A stretch of 38,357 bases of DNA, from NCBI RefSeq assembly GCF_016775155.1, contig NZ_JAEUGD010000041.1, positions 1-38,357 on the forward strand. The letters run 5' to 3'. Every line of letters starts with the position of its first letter. Position 1 is the first letter of the stretch. This document shows positions 1 through 5,880 of this stretch, piece by piece. A program made the position numbers and the translations under genes. The notes under the pieces were generated by a model. It saw nothing but the letters and a program-made list of their open reading frames with translations. It had not been told where the DNA came from and searched no databases. This stretch comes from Fulvivirga marina (GTDB lineage: Bacteria > Bacteroidota > Bacteroidia > Cytophagales > Cyclobacteriaceae).

Positions 1-20
1 AATTACGCAACTCTTAAAGT

Positions 21-66
21 GGCATAGTAACACCGAAATGACTGGCATAGTCCGACCGAAATAACC
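21..66. repeat. Two 23-bp direct repeats, possible IS21-type terminus
   Basis: Two adjacent 23-bp units (21-43 and 44-66) share 18 of 23 positions, each beginning GGCATAGT and containing ACCGAAAT. The reading frame of the neighbouring transposase stops matching its family exactly where these repeats begin (about position 68). Multiple short terminal repeats of this kind are typical of IS21-family ends. The body of such an element would lie left of the window, so the assignment is inference from pattern only. Confidence 0.35.
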
Positions 67-266
67 AATGATCATGGAAACGCGATTGCCATGCAAAATC
101 TGCATGTATTTTCCGGCATTCGAACGTGGTTCGCCCCCTGTACCATCGTACGATTTTCGACAGGTTGTCGTGCAACATGGGATTTTTATTACCGGTTATT
201 CCGCCAGGTGGGTTGGGTGATTCTGGATGGGGTTGTGATCCGAATTCCGGTTGATCCGGTTCCACC

Positions 267-306
267 ACGTTGGTAGAGACGCGATTAATCGCGTCTCTAC
301 CAACGT
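267..306. repeat. Perfect 40-bp REP-like palindrome inside the RAYT frame
   Basis: Positions 267-286 are the exact reverse complement of 287-306, centre between 286 and 287, with the core GAGACGCGATTAATCGCGTC. It lies in the RAYT reading frame without interrupting it and is read there as VGRDAINRVSTNVV. The GTAGAGACGCG...CGCGTCTCTAC type of palindrome is a known dispersed REP-like sequence in several phyla. Here it sits within the enzyme family thought to move such sequences. Confidence 0.85.
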
Positions 307-749
307 CCCCAACCAATAACCCATCGCCATCGTCCACATCCCGTCCAAACCCACCATCCGGTTTATCAATAATCACAATCCCATGAACATGATTGGGCAT
401 AACAATATGATTGCCCAATTTGGCAAACGGAAATTGATCGGGAATTTTCAACCAACATTCATGGGACATATGGTATCGTCACCGCGAGGCACGAAGCGGT
501 CCCCATATTCTAAGCTCTGCTCTTCTTATAATTTGGAGACTATTTGCCTACTGATTTCTGCAGCCATAATCCCAGAATGATGCACGTGCAGAGGCAATAC
601 GGTATTTGTTTTGGTAGGTGTCGGACATGGATACTTTCTATATACGTTTTAATTTCATGTATAGAAAATGTGCTTTTTCTATACATGTATACTTTTAAAA
701 TAGATGTGTAAACCTATGGGGAGGGGTTACTGTGGAGATTCTCCTGAAA

Positions 750-773
750 CAAAAAAACCGCGAAATTCGCGGT
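750..773 (-). terminator. Rho-independent terminator of the TAC cluster
   Basis: On the minus strand ACCGCG-AATTT-CGCGGT forms a GC-rich hairpin followed immediately by seven T residues (the A-run at 751-757 of the plus strand). It lies 31 bases after the stop of the small gene at 804 and is the first terminator met after the KAP/toxin/antitoxin/SecB-like genes, so it probably ends that transcript. Confidence 0.75.
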
Positions 774-803
774 CTTAAATCTATCTTTTTATTTCAATAA
801 ATC

Positions 804-950
804 TTAAAATGCAGGAGTATAACCTTTAATATACTCTGGCTTATACTCTTTAACCGAGGATAAATATTTCTTAGTATCAACTATTCCTTTCTTAGTTGAA
901 TTACTATCTGTATTATCAGTACTAGTTTGTTTCTTCAATTGTTTTTCCAT
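804..950 (-). CDS. Small hypothetical protein (48 aa) downstream of SecB-like gene
   Basis: An ATG at 950 opens a 48-codon frame ending with TAA at 804. The protein is highly charged: a Lys/Gln/Ser/Thr/Asn-rich first half (begins MEKQLKKQTSTDN) and a Tyr-rich second half with KYLSSVKEYKPEYIKGYTPAF-like content. It has no signal peptide or membrane segment. It starts 28 bases after the SecB-like stop and is followed by a good terminator, so it fits as the last cistron of the operon. I do not recognise a family. A small partner of the chaperone or antitoxin is possible, but that is only a guess from position. Its reality rests on start, composition and context. Confidence 0.55.
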   Translation of the reverse strand: MEKQLKKQTSTDNTDSNSTKKGIVDTKKYLSSVKEYKPEYIKGYTPAF

Positions 951-978
951 AATTAAGATTACTTATCTCACCAGAGTT

Positions 979-1410
979 TTACTCAAAAACTACATCTTCC
1001 TCTATCATCTCGGCTATGTTCATTGTAGGAAGTACAAATTGATCAAACTTCGTATTATCAAGCTTTGCATGTAATATACCCCTTGCAGTGCCAACAGTAA
1101 GTGCGGAAAGATGGATGAAAAAATCTTTCGGAATTATGTATTGACTGCTTTTTTTATCCAAAAACCTCAGAAAAGCCTTTTGTTCAATATCAAAATGACA
1201 AGAAGTTTTCAGGATTATGAATGGTCCTTTCTCGCATAAAAAGGATATCTCAAACCTAACCGCCAGGCTATGTTCTTCCTTATCGATACCAAATTTGAAG
1301 CCTGATTCAAGAGTAACTTCCTCTTTTTCTTTATAGTTGCTTTCTATCGTAGCAAATTCCTCTGTTACAATAGTTTTAATAGCAAATGGAATTATTTCGT
1401 TTTTTGACAT
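979..1410 (-). CDS. SecB-like chaperone, toxin-antitoxin associated
   Basis: This 143-residue protein resembles SecB in layout: a beta-strand-rich body (residues ~8-80) with a central FEISFLCE segment and HFDI at 72-75, followed by helices with TVGTARGILHAKL and the closing FDQFVLPTMN, the counterpart of the SecB ARG...(L/F)PxxNP-type region. SecB proteins are tetrameric holdase chaperones. A subgroup encoded next to HigBA-type pairs (as in Mycobacterium tuberculosis Rv1957) protects an aggregation-prone antitoxin. Here the gene begins 2 bases after the HTH antitoxin stop, so coupled translation and the same role are inferred. A housekeeping SecB is unlikely given this setting. Sequence similarity to classical SecB is weak, so confidence comes partly from context. 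Confidence 0.7.
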   Translation of the reverse strand: MSKNEIIPFAIKTIVTEEFATIESNYKEKEEVTLESGFKFGIDKEEHSLAVRFEISFLCEKGPFIILKTSCHFDIEQKAFLRFLDKKSSQYIIPKDFFIHLSALTVGTARGILHAKLDNTKFDQFVLPTMNIAEMIEEDVVFE

Positions 1411-1412
1411 AC

Positions 1413-1940
1413 TTATCCTTCCATTTCATAATGAGATTCTTCAGCAATCATCCTTTCCTTGCTGAACCCTTGAGCATAGATTTTTCTACTTACTTTCTGA
1501 TTCTCACTAATTTTAATACTGCTTGGGCTTTTCACAATATATGAAGTTTTAAATGTTTGCCGAACCAGTCCTTCATGAATAAAGAACATTCCTCCCTCAC
1601 TCTTCTTCACAACAATTTCATCAGAAGAAATTACAGAAATTAGCTCAATACCCAGGGCGCTTTCTATTTTGGTAATAGTTTCCAGTTTCAGGTTTTCCCT
1701 GCCCTTCAATATTTTATTCACCTGCTGCGGGCTCACCTCTAAAAGCTCTGCCAGGTTCTTTTGGCTTAGCCCCTTATCCCGCAGGGCCCGACCAATTTTG
1801 ATCGCAATTTTGGCCGATTTCCTCAACCAGGCTCTGTTAGCCTTGCGATAAGCATTGTCTTCCCTCCATTTACTATCCACGCCTTCAACCAAATAACTGT
1901 TGAAGGCTTCAATACTTTCCTTGCTTTCTCTGTTCTTCAT
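1413..1940 (-). CDS. HTH (XRE-type) antitoxin, HigA-like, with C-terminal extension
   Basis: 175 residues. A charged N-terminal segment is followed by a Cro/C1-type helix-turn-helix at about residues 46-103 (KGLSQKNLAELLEVSPQQVN, then INKILKGR-like and LETITKIESALGIEL). After it comes a 70-residue extension rich in Lys, Ser and Ile (105-175). Ordinary HigA antitoxins stop soon after the HTH. In toxin-antitoxin-chaperone systems an extra C-terminal chaperone-addiction segment binds the SecB-like partner, and the extension here is a candidate for that. The gene starts 5 bases after the toxin stop and ends 2 bases before the SecB-like start. Autorepression by the HTH is expected for the family, but no clear operator was found upstream. 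Confidence 0.8.
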   Translation of the reverse strand: MKNRESKESIEAFNSYLVEGVDSKWREDNAYRKANRAWLRKSAKIAIKIGRALRDKGLSQKNLAELLEVSPQQVNKILKGRENLKLETITKIESALGIELISVISSDEIVVKKSEGGMFFIHEGLVRQTFKTSYIVKSPSSIKISENQKVSRKIYAQGFSKERMIAEESHYEMEG

Positions 1941-1945
1941 AGATT

Positions 1946-2473
1946 TTATTCTAGATCAATAAACTTATCTGAAGCGGTGTTCAATTTTAATGCATCTCGT
2001 ACGATACTCATTTTTGTCAATTCCAAATCAGTATGTTCTCTTTCCTGCATGGTTTTGGTCAGCTTGATAGCCCCACCTGTGATAACATAACCATCAGCGA
2101 ATTTTACTGCATAAATTCTTAGCCACGTTTTGCGTTCGCTGCCTTTTGCTTTTTGTTTTTGATAATCCTTGATTTGATATTCTCTATCATTTAACGGTCG
2201 AAAAAGATTATCCAGGTTCGCTCCTTCATCTTCTTCTAAGGCTTCAAAGAGCTCATACGATTCATCATAAGTAGTGTCTACTGCCTCGTCTACGGTTATG
2301 CGCCCATAAAAACCTGATTGTAAATCAGCCTTATGTCCTTCAAAAAAATCTTGCAGCCATATAATATCAGACCAGTTATCTTGTAGTATTCTTAGAACAT
2401 GTGCAAGCTCTCCTTCCCATTGAACAGCCCATAGTTTGTTTTTAAGAGTTTCAAATATACGATGTATTAACAT
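1946..2473 (-). CDS. Probable RelE/HigB-superfamily toxin (175 aa)
   Basis: The C-terminal half carries a pattern like the RelE/HigB core: RKTWLRIYAVKFADGYVITGG, then AIKLTKTMQEREHTDLELTK, matching the usual basic residues, final strand and 'K-T-P-x-E-x-x-A' helix of ribosome-dependent mRNA endonucleases. The N-terminal ~100 residues (a W-rich, acidic region with LQDFFEGHKADLQSGFYG) are longer than in a typical ~100-residue HigB. It is first in the toxin-antitoxin-chaperone row, with the toxin-first order of HigBA. The start is an ATG at 2473, 104 bases after the KAP ATPase stop. The toxin assignment is inference from pattern and neighbours; catalytic residues cannot be named with confidence. 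Confidence 0.6.
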   Translation of the reverse strand: MLIHRIFETLKNKLWAVQWEGELAHVLRILQDNWSDIIWLQDFFEGHKADLQSGFYGRITVDEAVDTTYDESYELFEALEEDEGANLDNLFRPLNDREYQIKDYQKQKAKGSERKTWLRIYAVKFADGYVITGGAIKLTKTMQEREHTDLELTKMSIVRDALKLNTASDKFIDLE

Positions 2474-2577: not shown

Positions 2578-5500
2578 TTACTTGTTTGCCGTTTTACTTA
2601 CACCTCCAAAAGAAAACCTCCTTACAAAAGGAACATGTGCATTGAACTGCGAGCCAGTGTAATTCAATAGTTCTGAAATGTGACTATTTTTTTCAATAAT
2701 GATTTTGATTTGGTTAGACCTCTCAAGAAAATCTGACAACTGCTTATCAGGCTTACTGTCAAATTCTTTGAAAAGAAAGTGAGCCTGCTCTCTGTATTTT
2801 CCAAGATTCACTGCCAAAACAAACATGATAGCCAAAAATTCTTCATTCTGCTTTATCTCATCATATCGCAACTGTTCATGAGCACGTATAATGCGATAGA
2901 TGTTAATGAAGCGTTTAATTGTTCTTGGGGTATTGCCAACCAAGCAAATTATTTGTTGTAGAAGCTCATATTCTTTGTTTGAAATTCTAAGATCTTTTGG
3001 ATGAATTCGAGAACCTTTTGCTCCGTCATTTGATCCAGGTTCAGAGTTTTCTTGAAGAGCTTCAATGACCTTTTGGAATTCATTATCACTTACCTGTTTT
3101 ATTTCTTGTGACTCTAATTCCGACTGTAACGCTTTCAGCTCTTCGGATGTAAGCTTTTCTACTTGGGTTGATGTTTCAATTTGATTTTTAAGAATCTCTT
3201 TTACCATATTTTGAGCATCATGTTCTGTTGCGTCCTTTAATTGAAAGGGTATTTGAAAGATTTTCTCCAGATATTCATCTGGCTTAATTTCTTCTCTTTC
3301 CCCCGGTGAGTCAAAATTGTTCGGGGCTTGCTGTTTGTAATTTAAGGCATTGTAAACACATCTTTTATCAATACCTACAACAACATTAAACAATGGGAAT
3401 GCCATCAATAAATGAACGGCCTGAATAACCTCTAATACTTTTGTGTCAGTGCACCTGTCAAGATCATCGATGTAGAGAATTATACGGTCAAGAGGTTTTT
3501 TAAATAATTTTGTGAGTTCATCATGTTCTTTTTTCTTATCCTTTTGTTCATTTTGGACTTCTTGCCGAGCTTTAACATCTACTTCTATATCTCTAAAAAG
3601 CTCACTAAGAGTTTCGAAATCCTTTCTTATAATTGAAATAAGACCAAGGTGAGCCTCATATGTTTTATCTCCATTCCTCCTTTTGATAAAGTTATAAAAC
3701 GCTCTTTTTGCTACAAAATGATTCAAAGTATACTCTAAATCGGTAATCTCCTGATCTATTCTATTAAGTTTACTCTGAGCCAACAACATTTCAGAGCTTT
3801 TCTCTTTTATCTGTGTCTCCAGCAGTTGAAGTCTTTGATCATAGTTAAATTTAGCCTCTTCTAACTCCTGATTATATCGATTTTTGTAATCAATAACCGG
3901 CTGAATAAGTTTCCTGAAATTTTTATACGATTGATGAAATTTCGCAAATACAGGCCCCACAATGCTGAAAAATATTGTTATATGACGAGCTGTTTCATCA
4001 ATAAAATTACTTACAAGCCCCCAAGGATTAAACCAAACAAATAGAAGAACGAGTGTTGAAAAGAAAAAAGCTAATATGTAGCGCCATGAAAAACTACTTA
4101 AATTCTCATAAAAAGTCACCCAGGATGTCAATTCCTTATACAGGACATCAGGTGAAAGCTCATTGATCCTTTCTTTTGATATACCGTATTTATTTAACTG
4201 CACCTTAATTTCATCCTCCAGAGCAACTTTCTTTCGGACGTTATCAATTATTACTTTTAAATTCTTGTTTGCAACCTCATCCAGTAAATCCTGCTTACTT
4301 TGCTTTAGTTCATCTATCTTAGTCTGGGTTTCCTGTTTCTGCTTTTGGAGCTCTTCCTTTTCATTTGTTGTAATCTTTTTTTCGGTTGATAAAATTTCCA
4401 GCTTCTCACTTAGCTTTTGTCGTATCTCTAATTTCGCGTTCTTTCCTTTACTGCTATTAGTGATGTATTCATCCAGTTTCTCAAATATACTCGCAACCAA
4501 ACCAGCCCATAGATTAGCATCAAGGTAAGACCATGCATTAAATTTAATTTGAGCTATCCCCTTACAAAACGGCTCTTCATCATTTTTCACATCAGGATCA
4601 ACATCTTCGACAAACGCCTGATTAACCGATAATTCATCAATTCGTTTGGATAACTGCTGCATAAAAAAACTCTTACCGGAGCCCCAAGGCCCGAGTAAAG
4701 CAATGGCTAGAGGGGGCTGTACTTGCCTTGAGGCAAGCAACAAGGCAAAGGCTCGGATATCATTCTCTATATCCAATAAATCCTTTGTAGAGTAGGCTAC
4801 GTCATTGTCAAAGCCTGTTAGTTTAATTTTATTTTTAATATGTTTTGTTATCTCATGCTCTATTTCATCTTCGGCTAAGAATGGGGTGCTAATGCTCAGC
4901 TCTGTGGAATTAATAATTTCCTCAAAAACAGACCTATGAACTCGCCATAGATTACCCTGAAGTTTTTCTGAATTCAAAAGTAATAAATCAAAATTTGGAA
5001 GTTGCTCTAGTTTTTTTCGAGAAACTGCCCTGGTAAATTTATACAGCAGTTTAAAGTGTACCTGATTTCTTTGAGGGTAAATCTCATAAACTTCAAAAAG
5101 TCCTTTTACCTCTCTATTTGGTGAAGCCTGAAAGCCTATAACTAAATCCCCTGGGTGGAGATTATAGAGATCAGACTTTATATCAAGATTACTAAAAACA
5201 ACATCTTCATTATAGATAGAATCTACATTAAAATCCTCTATTATTAGTCGATCCTGAGTAACGTTCAACCACCAGTAATAGTCACTGGAACGATGTAAAA
5301 TTAAATTCTCTATGGCTGCAATTTTCCGAACTTCTTTGGGATCATTGATCTCAAAAGCACTTGTAATGTTGCTTCTCACTTTTTTGTATGAATCCACTAT
5401 TGATCCCTCAGTAAAAGAATTGTCAGCTTGTTGCTTACTACCACTCCTCTCTTCTATAAGCTTCACTCCCCACTTTTCCTGAATGTCAGGATACTTATAC

Positions 5501-5880
5501 AATTCTGTTTCAATCCAACCAAGATCAAAAACCTCAAATTTTCCTGCAATTAATTTTTGCATATAGGCATTAAGCTGATTAGCTATATTTTGATGAACTC
5601 TTGAGAAAGCCACTAGTAAGTATGATAATGGCTTCAACTCTTGAACATGAAGCTCCATCTTCTTTAACAGCCTAAAGGTTTCAGTAATTTTTGTTTGTCC
5701 CAATATAGAAGCGACTACATCCGGAGCAGGGGAATTTGCTTGATTTTGCCACAGATCAGGTCCCTTCTTTCCCTTGGCAGAAAAAGGCTGCAAGTCTAAT
5801 CCAAATACTTGATTTAGAAGATCCTGTGCCAGACCTTCCTTAGATTTATCGCTTATCTCATCAAAATTAAACTTGCTCAT
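2578..5880 (-). CDS. KAP-family P-loop NTPase with EVE/PUA-like domain
   Basis: 1100 residues. (1) Residues 1-~145: an unassigned domain with a GKKGPDLW motif. (2) About 200-325: an EVE/PUA-like fold (DYYWWLN, then GDLVIGFQASPNREVKGLFEVYEI, ending with LWRVHRSVFEEI), the type linked to recognition of modified bases in McrB-like proteins. (3) KAP NTPase: Walker A GPWGSGKS (397-404), a long insertion with coiled coils and two hydrophobic segments (about 597-643), Walker B with the KAP signature ILYIDDLDRC (about 800), and the C-terminal GNTPRTIKRFINIYR helix. KAP ATPases are membrane-associated and frequent in defence loci. It lies upstream of the TAC genes on the same strand, separated by 104 bases. 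A defence role is inference. Confidence 0.85.
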   Translation of the reverse strand: MSKFNFDEISDKSKEGLAQDLLNQVFGLDLQPFSAKGKKGPDLWQNQANSPAPDVVASILGQTKITETFRLLKKMELHVQELKPLSYLLVAFSRVHQNIANQLNAYMQKLIAGKFEVFDLGWIETELYKYPDIQEKWGVKLIEERSGSKQQADNSFTEGSIVDSYKKVRSNITSAFEINDPKEVRKIAAIENLILHRSSDYYWWLNVTQDRLIIEDFNVDSIYNEDVVFSNLDIKSDLYNLHPGDLVIGFQASPNREVKGLFEVYEIYPQRNQVHFKLLYKFTRAVSRKKLEQLPNFDLLLLNSEKLQGNLWRVHRSVFEEIINSTELSISTPFLAEDEIEHEITKHIKNKIKLTGFDNDVAYSTKDLLDIENDIRAFALLLASRQVQPPLAIALLGPWGSGKSFFMQQLSKRIDELSVNQAFVEDVDPDVKNDEEPFCKGIAQIKFNAWSYLDANLWAGLVASIFEKLDEYITNSSKGKNAKLEIRQKLSEKLEILSTEKKITTNEKEELQKQKQETQTKIDELKQSKQDLLDEVANKNLKVIIDNVRKKVALEDEIKVQLNKYGISKERINELSPDVLYKELTSWVTFYENLSSFSWRYILAFFFSTLVLLFVWFNPWGLVSNFIDETARHITIFFSIVGPVFAKFHQSYKNFRKLIQPVIDYKNRYNQELEEAKFNYDQRLQLLETQIKEKSSEMLLAQSKLNRIDQEITDLEYTLNHFVAKRAFYNFIKRRNGDKTYEAHLGLISIIRKDFETLSELFRDIEVDVKARQEVQNEQKDKKKEHDELTKLFKKPLDRIILYIDDLDRCTDTKVLEVIQAVHLLMAFPLFNVVVGIDKRCVYNALNYKQQAPNNFDSPGEREEIKPDEYLEKIFQIPFQLKDATEHDAQNMVKEILKNQIETSTQVEKLTSEELKALQSELESQEIKQVSDNEFQKVIEALQENSEPGSNDGAKGSRIHPKDLRISNKEYELLQQIICLVGNTPRTIKRFINIYRIIRAHEQLRYDEIKQNEEFLAIMFVLAVNLGKYREQAHFLFKEFDSKPDKQLSDFLERSNQIKIIIEKNSHISELLNYTGSQFNAHVPFVRRFSFGGVSKTANK

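Follow-up and report, generated by a model that had tools for sequence, protein, structure and literature searches.

In a 38,357-nucleotide stretch of Fulvivirga marina DNA (contig NZ_JAEUGD010000041.1, positions 1 to 38,357; the window), a compact row of genes on the minus strand is almost certainly a type II toxin-antitoxin-chaperone (TAC) module, as judged from sequences and structure models. Its genes are called T (toxin), A (antitoxin) and C (chaperone) here. A prediction made from the sequence alone (the original prediction) had proposed such a module with an oversized toxin, a fourth small gene and a terminator, and all four open reading frames (ORFs) were recovered at the positions given there, with a terminator-like hairpin (776-754) behind them. 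The features are as follows.

1946..2473, minus strand: T, predicted RelE/HigB-fold toxin, 175 residues; K108, R119, Y121 and K137 are invariant in the family
1413..1940, minus strand: A, helix-turn-helix (HTH) antitoxin, 175 residues (HTH_3, E = 2.1e-11; PADLOC model PDC-M64C, E = 1.7e-18)
1641..1787, minus strand: HTH core of A, residues 52-100 (the HTH_3 domain)
1416..1637, minus strand: C-terminal extension of A, residues 102-175, a putative chaperone-addiction (ChAD) tail of 74 residues ending in HYEMEG
979..1410, minus strand: C, SecB-like chaperone, 143 residues
804..950, minus strand: small ORF, 48 residues, with coding-like codons and no homologues found, ahead of the terminator
754..776, minus strand: intrinsic-terminator-like hairpin closing the unit, 3' of the small ORF
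2578..5880, minus strand: KAP-family P-loop nucleoside triphosphatase (NTPase), 1100 residues (PF07693, E = 1e-34), a neighbour not counted as part of the module

The gaps are 5 bases between T and A and 2 bases between A and C, as predicted, and 28 bases between C and the small ORF. For T, A and C alike, the codon score in the gene's own frame was higher than in the other five frames and higher than in all 2000 shuffles; together with the recurrence of the same order in 41 distinct loci, these scores put the T-A-C arrangement beyond chance. Two terminator-like sites were found between positions 600 and 2700, compared with a shuffle mean of 0.9 (standard deviation 1.1). The window's genome holds one match to the locus and one match to the T profile.

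Structure prediction bore out the proposed toxin type. The model of T has the RelE fold expected of RelE/HigB (BECR-fold) toxins (mean predicted confidence, pLDDT, 88), and its best neighbours in the PDB include HigB1 of the Mycobacterium tuberculosis TAC. Three residues that are invariant in all 105 toxins compared, K108, R119 and K137, may correspond to R68, R77 and K95 of the M. tuberculosis HigB, judging by order and spacing; the available text of PMC9098466 gives the latter as the catalytic residues of that toxin. By its model T is a RelE/HigB-fold toxin, and by analogy with characterised TACs probably a ribosome-dependent mRNA nuclease. It is indeed oversized, being about 50 residues longer than the M. 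tuberculosis toxin, with the excess lying, on our reading, mainly in helices that precede the sheet's second half.

Sequence libraries were far less informative. Whether presented as single sequences, profiles or alignments, T and C gave no useful match in Pfam, NCBIfam or the PDB sequences, and the search with hidden Markov models (HMMs) suggested for T returned nothing useful from the first two; 20 toxins of this branch and 10 chaperones were likewise tested against Pfam with no telling match. Among the PADLOC toxin models, PDC-M64B matched 17 and M64A 9 of the 20 T-family members tested, the window's own T matching PDC-M64B weakly (E = 0.007). The viral contigs scanned with T yielded no relative. 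At two loci of identical sequence (L006, 1480-2340; L036, 6001-6861), toxin and HTH antitoxin are fused in one ORF of 286 residues that has neither tail nor chaperone.

The model of C, which contains the TARGIL...LPTMN stretch singled out earlier, has a SecB fold (pLDDT 95). The HMM check of this assignment was split: the Pfam SecB model did not recognise C, but profile comparison did link it to a SecB-like set. Since that Pfam model found nothing over its cut-off in the whole genome of the window either (best E = 0.76, at a place other than C), canonical SecB seems to be absent there, as far as this model can see. C matched the PADLOC PDC-M64C model with E = 3.5e-11, and the CmdC model PD-T4-9_C was matched by one of four C members tested (L033, E = 2.3e-5).

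Relatives of C were present in 54 of 395 genomes of the phylum, the window's own included. Of the 55 places concerned, 30 were read as loci, 9 more were fetched and 16 were left out. Apart from the window, 29 such loci were read, 12 of them T-A-C and 17 with no T or A within about 1.5 kb on each side. These orphan SecB-like relatives (L132-L148) all belong to one genus, perhaps Chlorobium. Of the nine weaker matches that were fetched, seven had a pair of short genes just upstream and two did not, and in the seven pairs the nearer gene matched the antitoxin profile six times, while the farther gene matched the T profile weakly in three cases and not in four. Related TACs at two further loci (L150, L152) combine toxins of the PDC-M64B type with a chaperone that passes the Pfam SecB cut-off, and their antitoxins end in RLTG and RLAG.

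Antitoxin tail and chaperone in related loci

The HTH antitoxin had been predicted to carry an extension of about 70 residues, which agrees with the HTH_3 match and the 74 residues that follow the core. We compared this tail across 105 distinct T-A loci (window included), in which a SecB-like chaperone lies behind A in 41 (TAC) and is missing from 64 (toxin-antitoxin, TA). The conserved co-occurrence that the original prediction had asked about was thus found for the trio, with median gaps of 4 and -1 bases over the 41 loci, but did not extend to the fourth gene. Loci with no separate antitoxin match (L006, L018, L036, L048), one with no T match among its ORFs (L023) and repeats with the same 60 C-terminal toxin residues were dropped before this count. 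L038 was counted as TA despite a remnant of C, and four of the 64 TA loci (L065, L076, L083, L099) have fewer than 500 bases behind the antitoxin, so that a chaperone could be missed there.

The tail after the HTH core measured 22-143 residues (median 57) in TAC loci, as against at most 74 (median 7.5) in TA loci. A tail of at least 40 residues was present in 40 of the 41 TAC loci and in only 2 of the 64 TA loci. The exceptions were L131, a TAC locus whose short tail is truncated by an in-frame stop, and L039 and L091, TA loci with long tails and no C. In L038, T and the HTH part are kept and followed by a 33-residue remnant of C, and the tail was apparently lost along with most of the chaperone. 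In a same-genus locus (L158, 3032-4456), both the toxin and the chaperone gene are broken up over different reading frames, as in a decayed TAC.

A tree of the 105 toxins required 16 changes among TA, TAC and TAC with a second chaperone, and the layouts have therefore switched repeatedly. On its well supported branches, seven independent pairs differed in the chaperone; the long tail went with the chaperone in 6.7 of these on average and the opposite occurred in 0.0 (median p = 0.016 over 200 pairings, range 0.016-0.125). Gene order, co-occurrence and this coupling of tail to chaperone were computed here, as were the folds predicted for T and C. The coupling also bears on a simpler account, in which an ordinary two-gene TA happens to stand beside a SecB-like export gene and the tail is unrelated to the chaperone. 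Such an account would accommodate the general role of SecB as a chaperone, the existence of orphan relatives of C and the long tails of L039 and L091, which have no C. Yet gain or loss of the tail goes with gain or loss of the chaperone, L038 lacks both, and in L160 (below) the two are found side by side on another TA pair; we regard this account as very improbable.

Of the TAC antitoxins, 21 of 41 end in an aromatic residue and a small last residue, as the window's HYEMEG does, compared with 4 of 64 TA antitoxins. This difference was not significant on the tree (median p = 0.25), and the criterion was defined after the tails had been viewed. These ends are reminiscent of the LAA end of CmdA, which is a ClpXP signal according to the available text of PMC11618068.

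Second chaperone and a possible cassette exchange

Five loci (L010, L061, L090, L101, L108) carry a toxin of the T family, an A with a long tail and, behind them, a different SecB-like chaperone, C'. All four of these loci that have names belong to Cyclobacteriaceae. The Pfam SecB model reached C' below threshold in two of three members tested (E = 0.0034 and 0.009). An initial comparison of the C and C' profiles gave a weak match (8.6% probability), a broader one 92%. Both chaperones occur within a single toxin clade (support 100/100), and L043 (Roseivirga seohaensis), which has the C-type chaperone, is 70% identical to L101 in T and 62% in the HTH core, while its tail hardly aligns to that of L101 (24%, score 27). 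An approximately unbiased test did not reject one origin for the C' cassette (p = 0.41), and for this reason we claim at least one cassette replacement in this clade, not several.

The reverse arrangement is represented by L160 (645-1950; genome G091). Its C' is 74% identical to that of L090, and the last 60 residues of its antitoxin are 68% identical to those of the L090 antitoxin (z = 26). The N-terminal parts of the two antitoxins have only a degree of similarity that any pair of HTH proteins might show (17%, z = 2.2), and the L160 toxin, of 141 residues, has no detectable similarity to T (28%, z = 1.3). In these parts L160 is instead related to L164 (toxin 52%, HTH part 43%). L164 has a different tail (23%, z = 1.8), and its chaperone is less closely related to C' (41%). 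At the DNA level, L160 and L090 are 71% similar over 567 bases, a stretch that starts near the junction of HTH and tail and spans most of the chaperone gene. The simplest reading of these sequences is a joint transfer of tail and chaperone.

The same toxin family is thus found with at least two dissimilar cassettes, and one cassette is found on two toxins that are not detectably similar. We tentatively suggest, with confidence falling a little short of even, that a natural addiction cassette, made up of antitoxin tail and SecB-like chaperone, is mobile as one unit between TA pairs, the break lying at the HTH/tail junction. In the part of Bordes 2016 available to us, ChAD/SecB modules were grafted by engineering, tail plus chaperone behaving as a transferable unit, and the ChAD regions of the TACs studied showed no significant similarity to each other. 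Those grafts were engineered, whereas L160 and L090 suggest a natural counterpart. It has already been published that TAC chaperones are of multiple origin and are encoded in regions showing signs of horizontal transfer (PMC4257090, available text). We recognised no report of natural transfer of a tail-chaperone unit in the literature covered, in which few papers were examined in full and subscription papers were not included. If such cassettes do move, and if the chaperone is a phage sensor as in CmdTAC, then sensors would have been swapped while the killer was kept, and the reverse.

Neighbouring genes

The small ORF behind C has a codon score above all 2000 shuffles and probably shares a transcript with the TAC. 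The original prediction of an extra fourth gene therefore stood as far as a coding-like ORF is concerned, but since no homologue was found, the ORF is not a conserved part of the system. No relative lay beside the other TAC loci examined, and in a search of the order 44 of 241 genomes gave matches at E ≤ 1, the best outside the window's locus being 0.064. We regard it, from these comparisons, as a young or lineage-specific gene. Alternatively, it could encode a functional fourth part of the system, such as an inhibitor, a peptide trigger or a client of the chaperone, in keeping with its coding-like codons and its position 28 bases behind C and ahead of the terminator. We consider this improbable, because no homologue came below E = 0.06 in the 240 other genomes of the order, such an ORF is missing after C in L030 and L158, two loci of the same genus, and several other loci carry different short ORFs at that place.

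The KAP NTPase is encoded on the same strand as T, 104 bases upstream. It contains a QatA-like stretch (QatA model, E = 5.5e-15, far under that model's cut-off) and may be a stand-alone defence gene. A composite defence operon of NTPase and TAC would explain the shared strand and short gap, and KAP proteins such as QatA do occur in defence systems. However, in L030 (Fulvivirga aurantia), which is the closest relative, the second ORF upstream of T is a type I specificity gene and not a KAP gene, and no KAP relative was found among the ORFs of L001-L026 beyond the window's own, a weak negative as at most about 1.5 kb per side was covered. A composite operon appears slightly less probable even than a working fourth component.

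Type I restriction genes (hsdM/hsdS-type) were found near 9 of 19 TAC but 0 of 54 TA loci (Fisher p = 9.5e-7). This comparison covered 19 of the 41 TAC and 54 of the 64 TA loci, the TA set being mostly Bacteroidales; restriction genes were assigned by Pfam on representatives of six of the nine loci and by a PADLOC scan of 122 neighbours. On the tree the association was not significant (four independent pairs, median p = 0.5). In L037, L060, L061, L101 and L108, an hsdM/hsdS-type gene lies in front of T at a distance of 35-51 bases, the place that the KAP NTPase, not a restriction gene, takes in the window. Elsewhere in the window, the ORF at 14-469 (minus strand) had no Pfam match; its protein, with the motif MPNHVHGI, presumably resembles REP-associated (Y1) transposases, as judged by eye.

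Proposed function and known systems

We consider it highly probable that the locus works as a TAC in which the antitoxin depends on the chaperone and the toxin is freed when the chaperone is diverted. The steps are modelled on characterised TACs, from which tail binding, proteolysis, nuclease activity and trigger are all carried over. The HTH part of A would hold T and probably also the operon promoter, while the tail would make A dependent on C, which would bind it, keep A folded and guard it from proteolysis. C would be drawn away by an unfolded client, most likely a phage structural protein. Left with no C, A would be degraded and the freed T would cut translated mRNA, stopping translation. 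We give a phage protein as the trigger about an even chance.

A role in phage defence is likely by analogy. As described in the available parts of the respective reports, MqsRAC and CmdTAC protect against phages, a capsid protein competes for the CmdTAC chaperone (PMC11618068) and the HigBAC toxin is activated by the lambda major tail protein (PMC11980606). The same module might instead be a growth regulator linked to stress or export, or a stabiliser of DNA, triggered by misfolded or secreted proteins that occupy the chaperone. This agrees with an older view, found in the same part of Bordes 2016, that TAC chaperones can replace Escherichia coli SecB and that chaperone titration is the trigger; relatives of T do occur on plasmids, as two-gene TA in Bacteroides and Phocaeicola and as TAC in Persicobacter (L027), and 17 of the 29 non-window C loci, from one genus, are chaperone-only. 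Against it stand the phage responses of the characterised systems, the restriction genes in 9 of 19 TAC neighbourhoods, though not significant on the tree, and the listing of the family by PADLOC as candidate defence PDC-M64. We consider a regulator or stabiliser rather unlikely, and favour phage defence.

The locus has the three adjacent, co-directional genes of a TAC, the last encoding a SecB-fold protein, and an antitoxin tail that is mostly absent from relatives with no chaperone. With HigB1-HigA1-Rv1957 of M. tuberculosis (Rv1955-Rv1957) it shares the T-A-C order, the tailed HTH antitoxin, the SecB-fold chaperone and the RelE/HigB-fold toxin, and both solved proteins of that TAC are among the best structural matches of T and C. 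The two systems differ in that sequence identity is only 5-11% and the antitoxin tails are unlike. In CmdTAC (PD-T4-9), MqsRAC and HigBAC of E. coli the third gene is a SecB-like chaperone, as here; however, CmdT is an ADP-ribosyltransferase (PMC11618068) and MqsR belongs to another toxin family, whereas T is HigB-like. The PADLOC candidate defence system PDC-M64 (A, B, C) is another close entry, the window's A and C matching PDC-M64C models and its T, weakly, M64B. PADLOC PDC candidates are described as the product of guilt-by-embedding (PMC12988326, in the available text of which PDC-M64 is not named), and the surroundings of the TAC loci fit that approach.

In the many natural loci described here, toxins of one family are paired in some cases with a chaperone-dependent antitoxin and in others not, which allows a comparative test of chaperone addiction. 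Natural cassette exchange would match the published grafting, and makes the chaperone as an exchangeable phage sensor a concrete question. To the known TACs these loci add a Bacteroidota branch that sequence models mostly miss.
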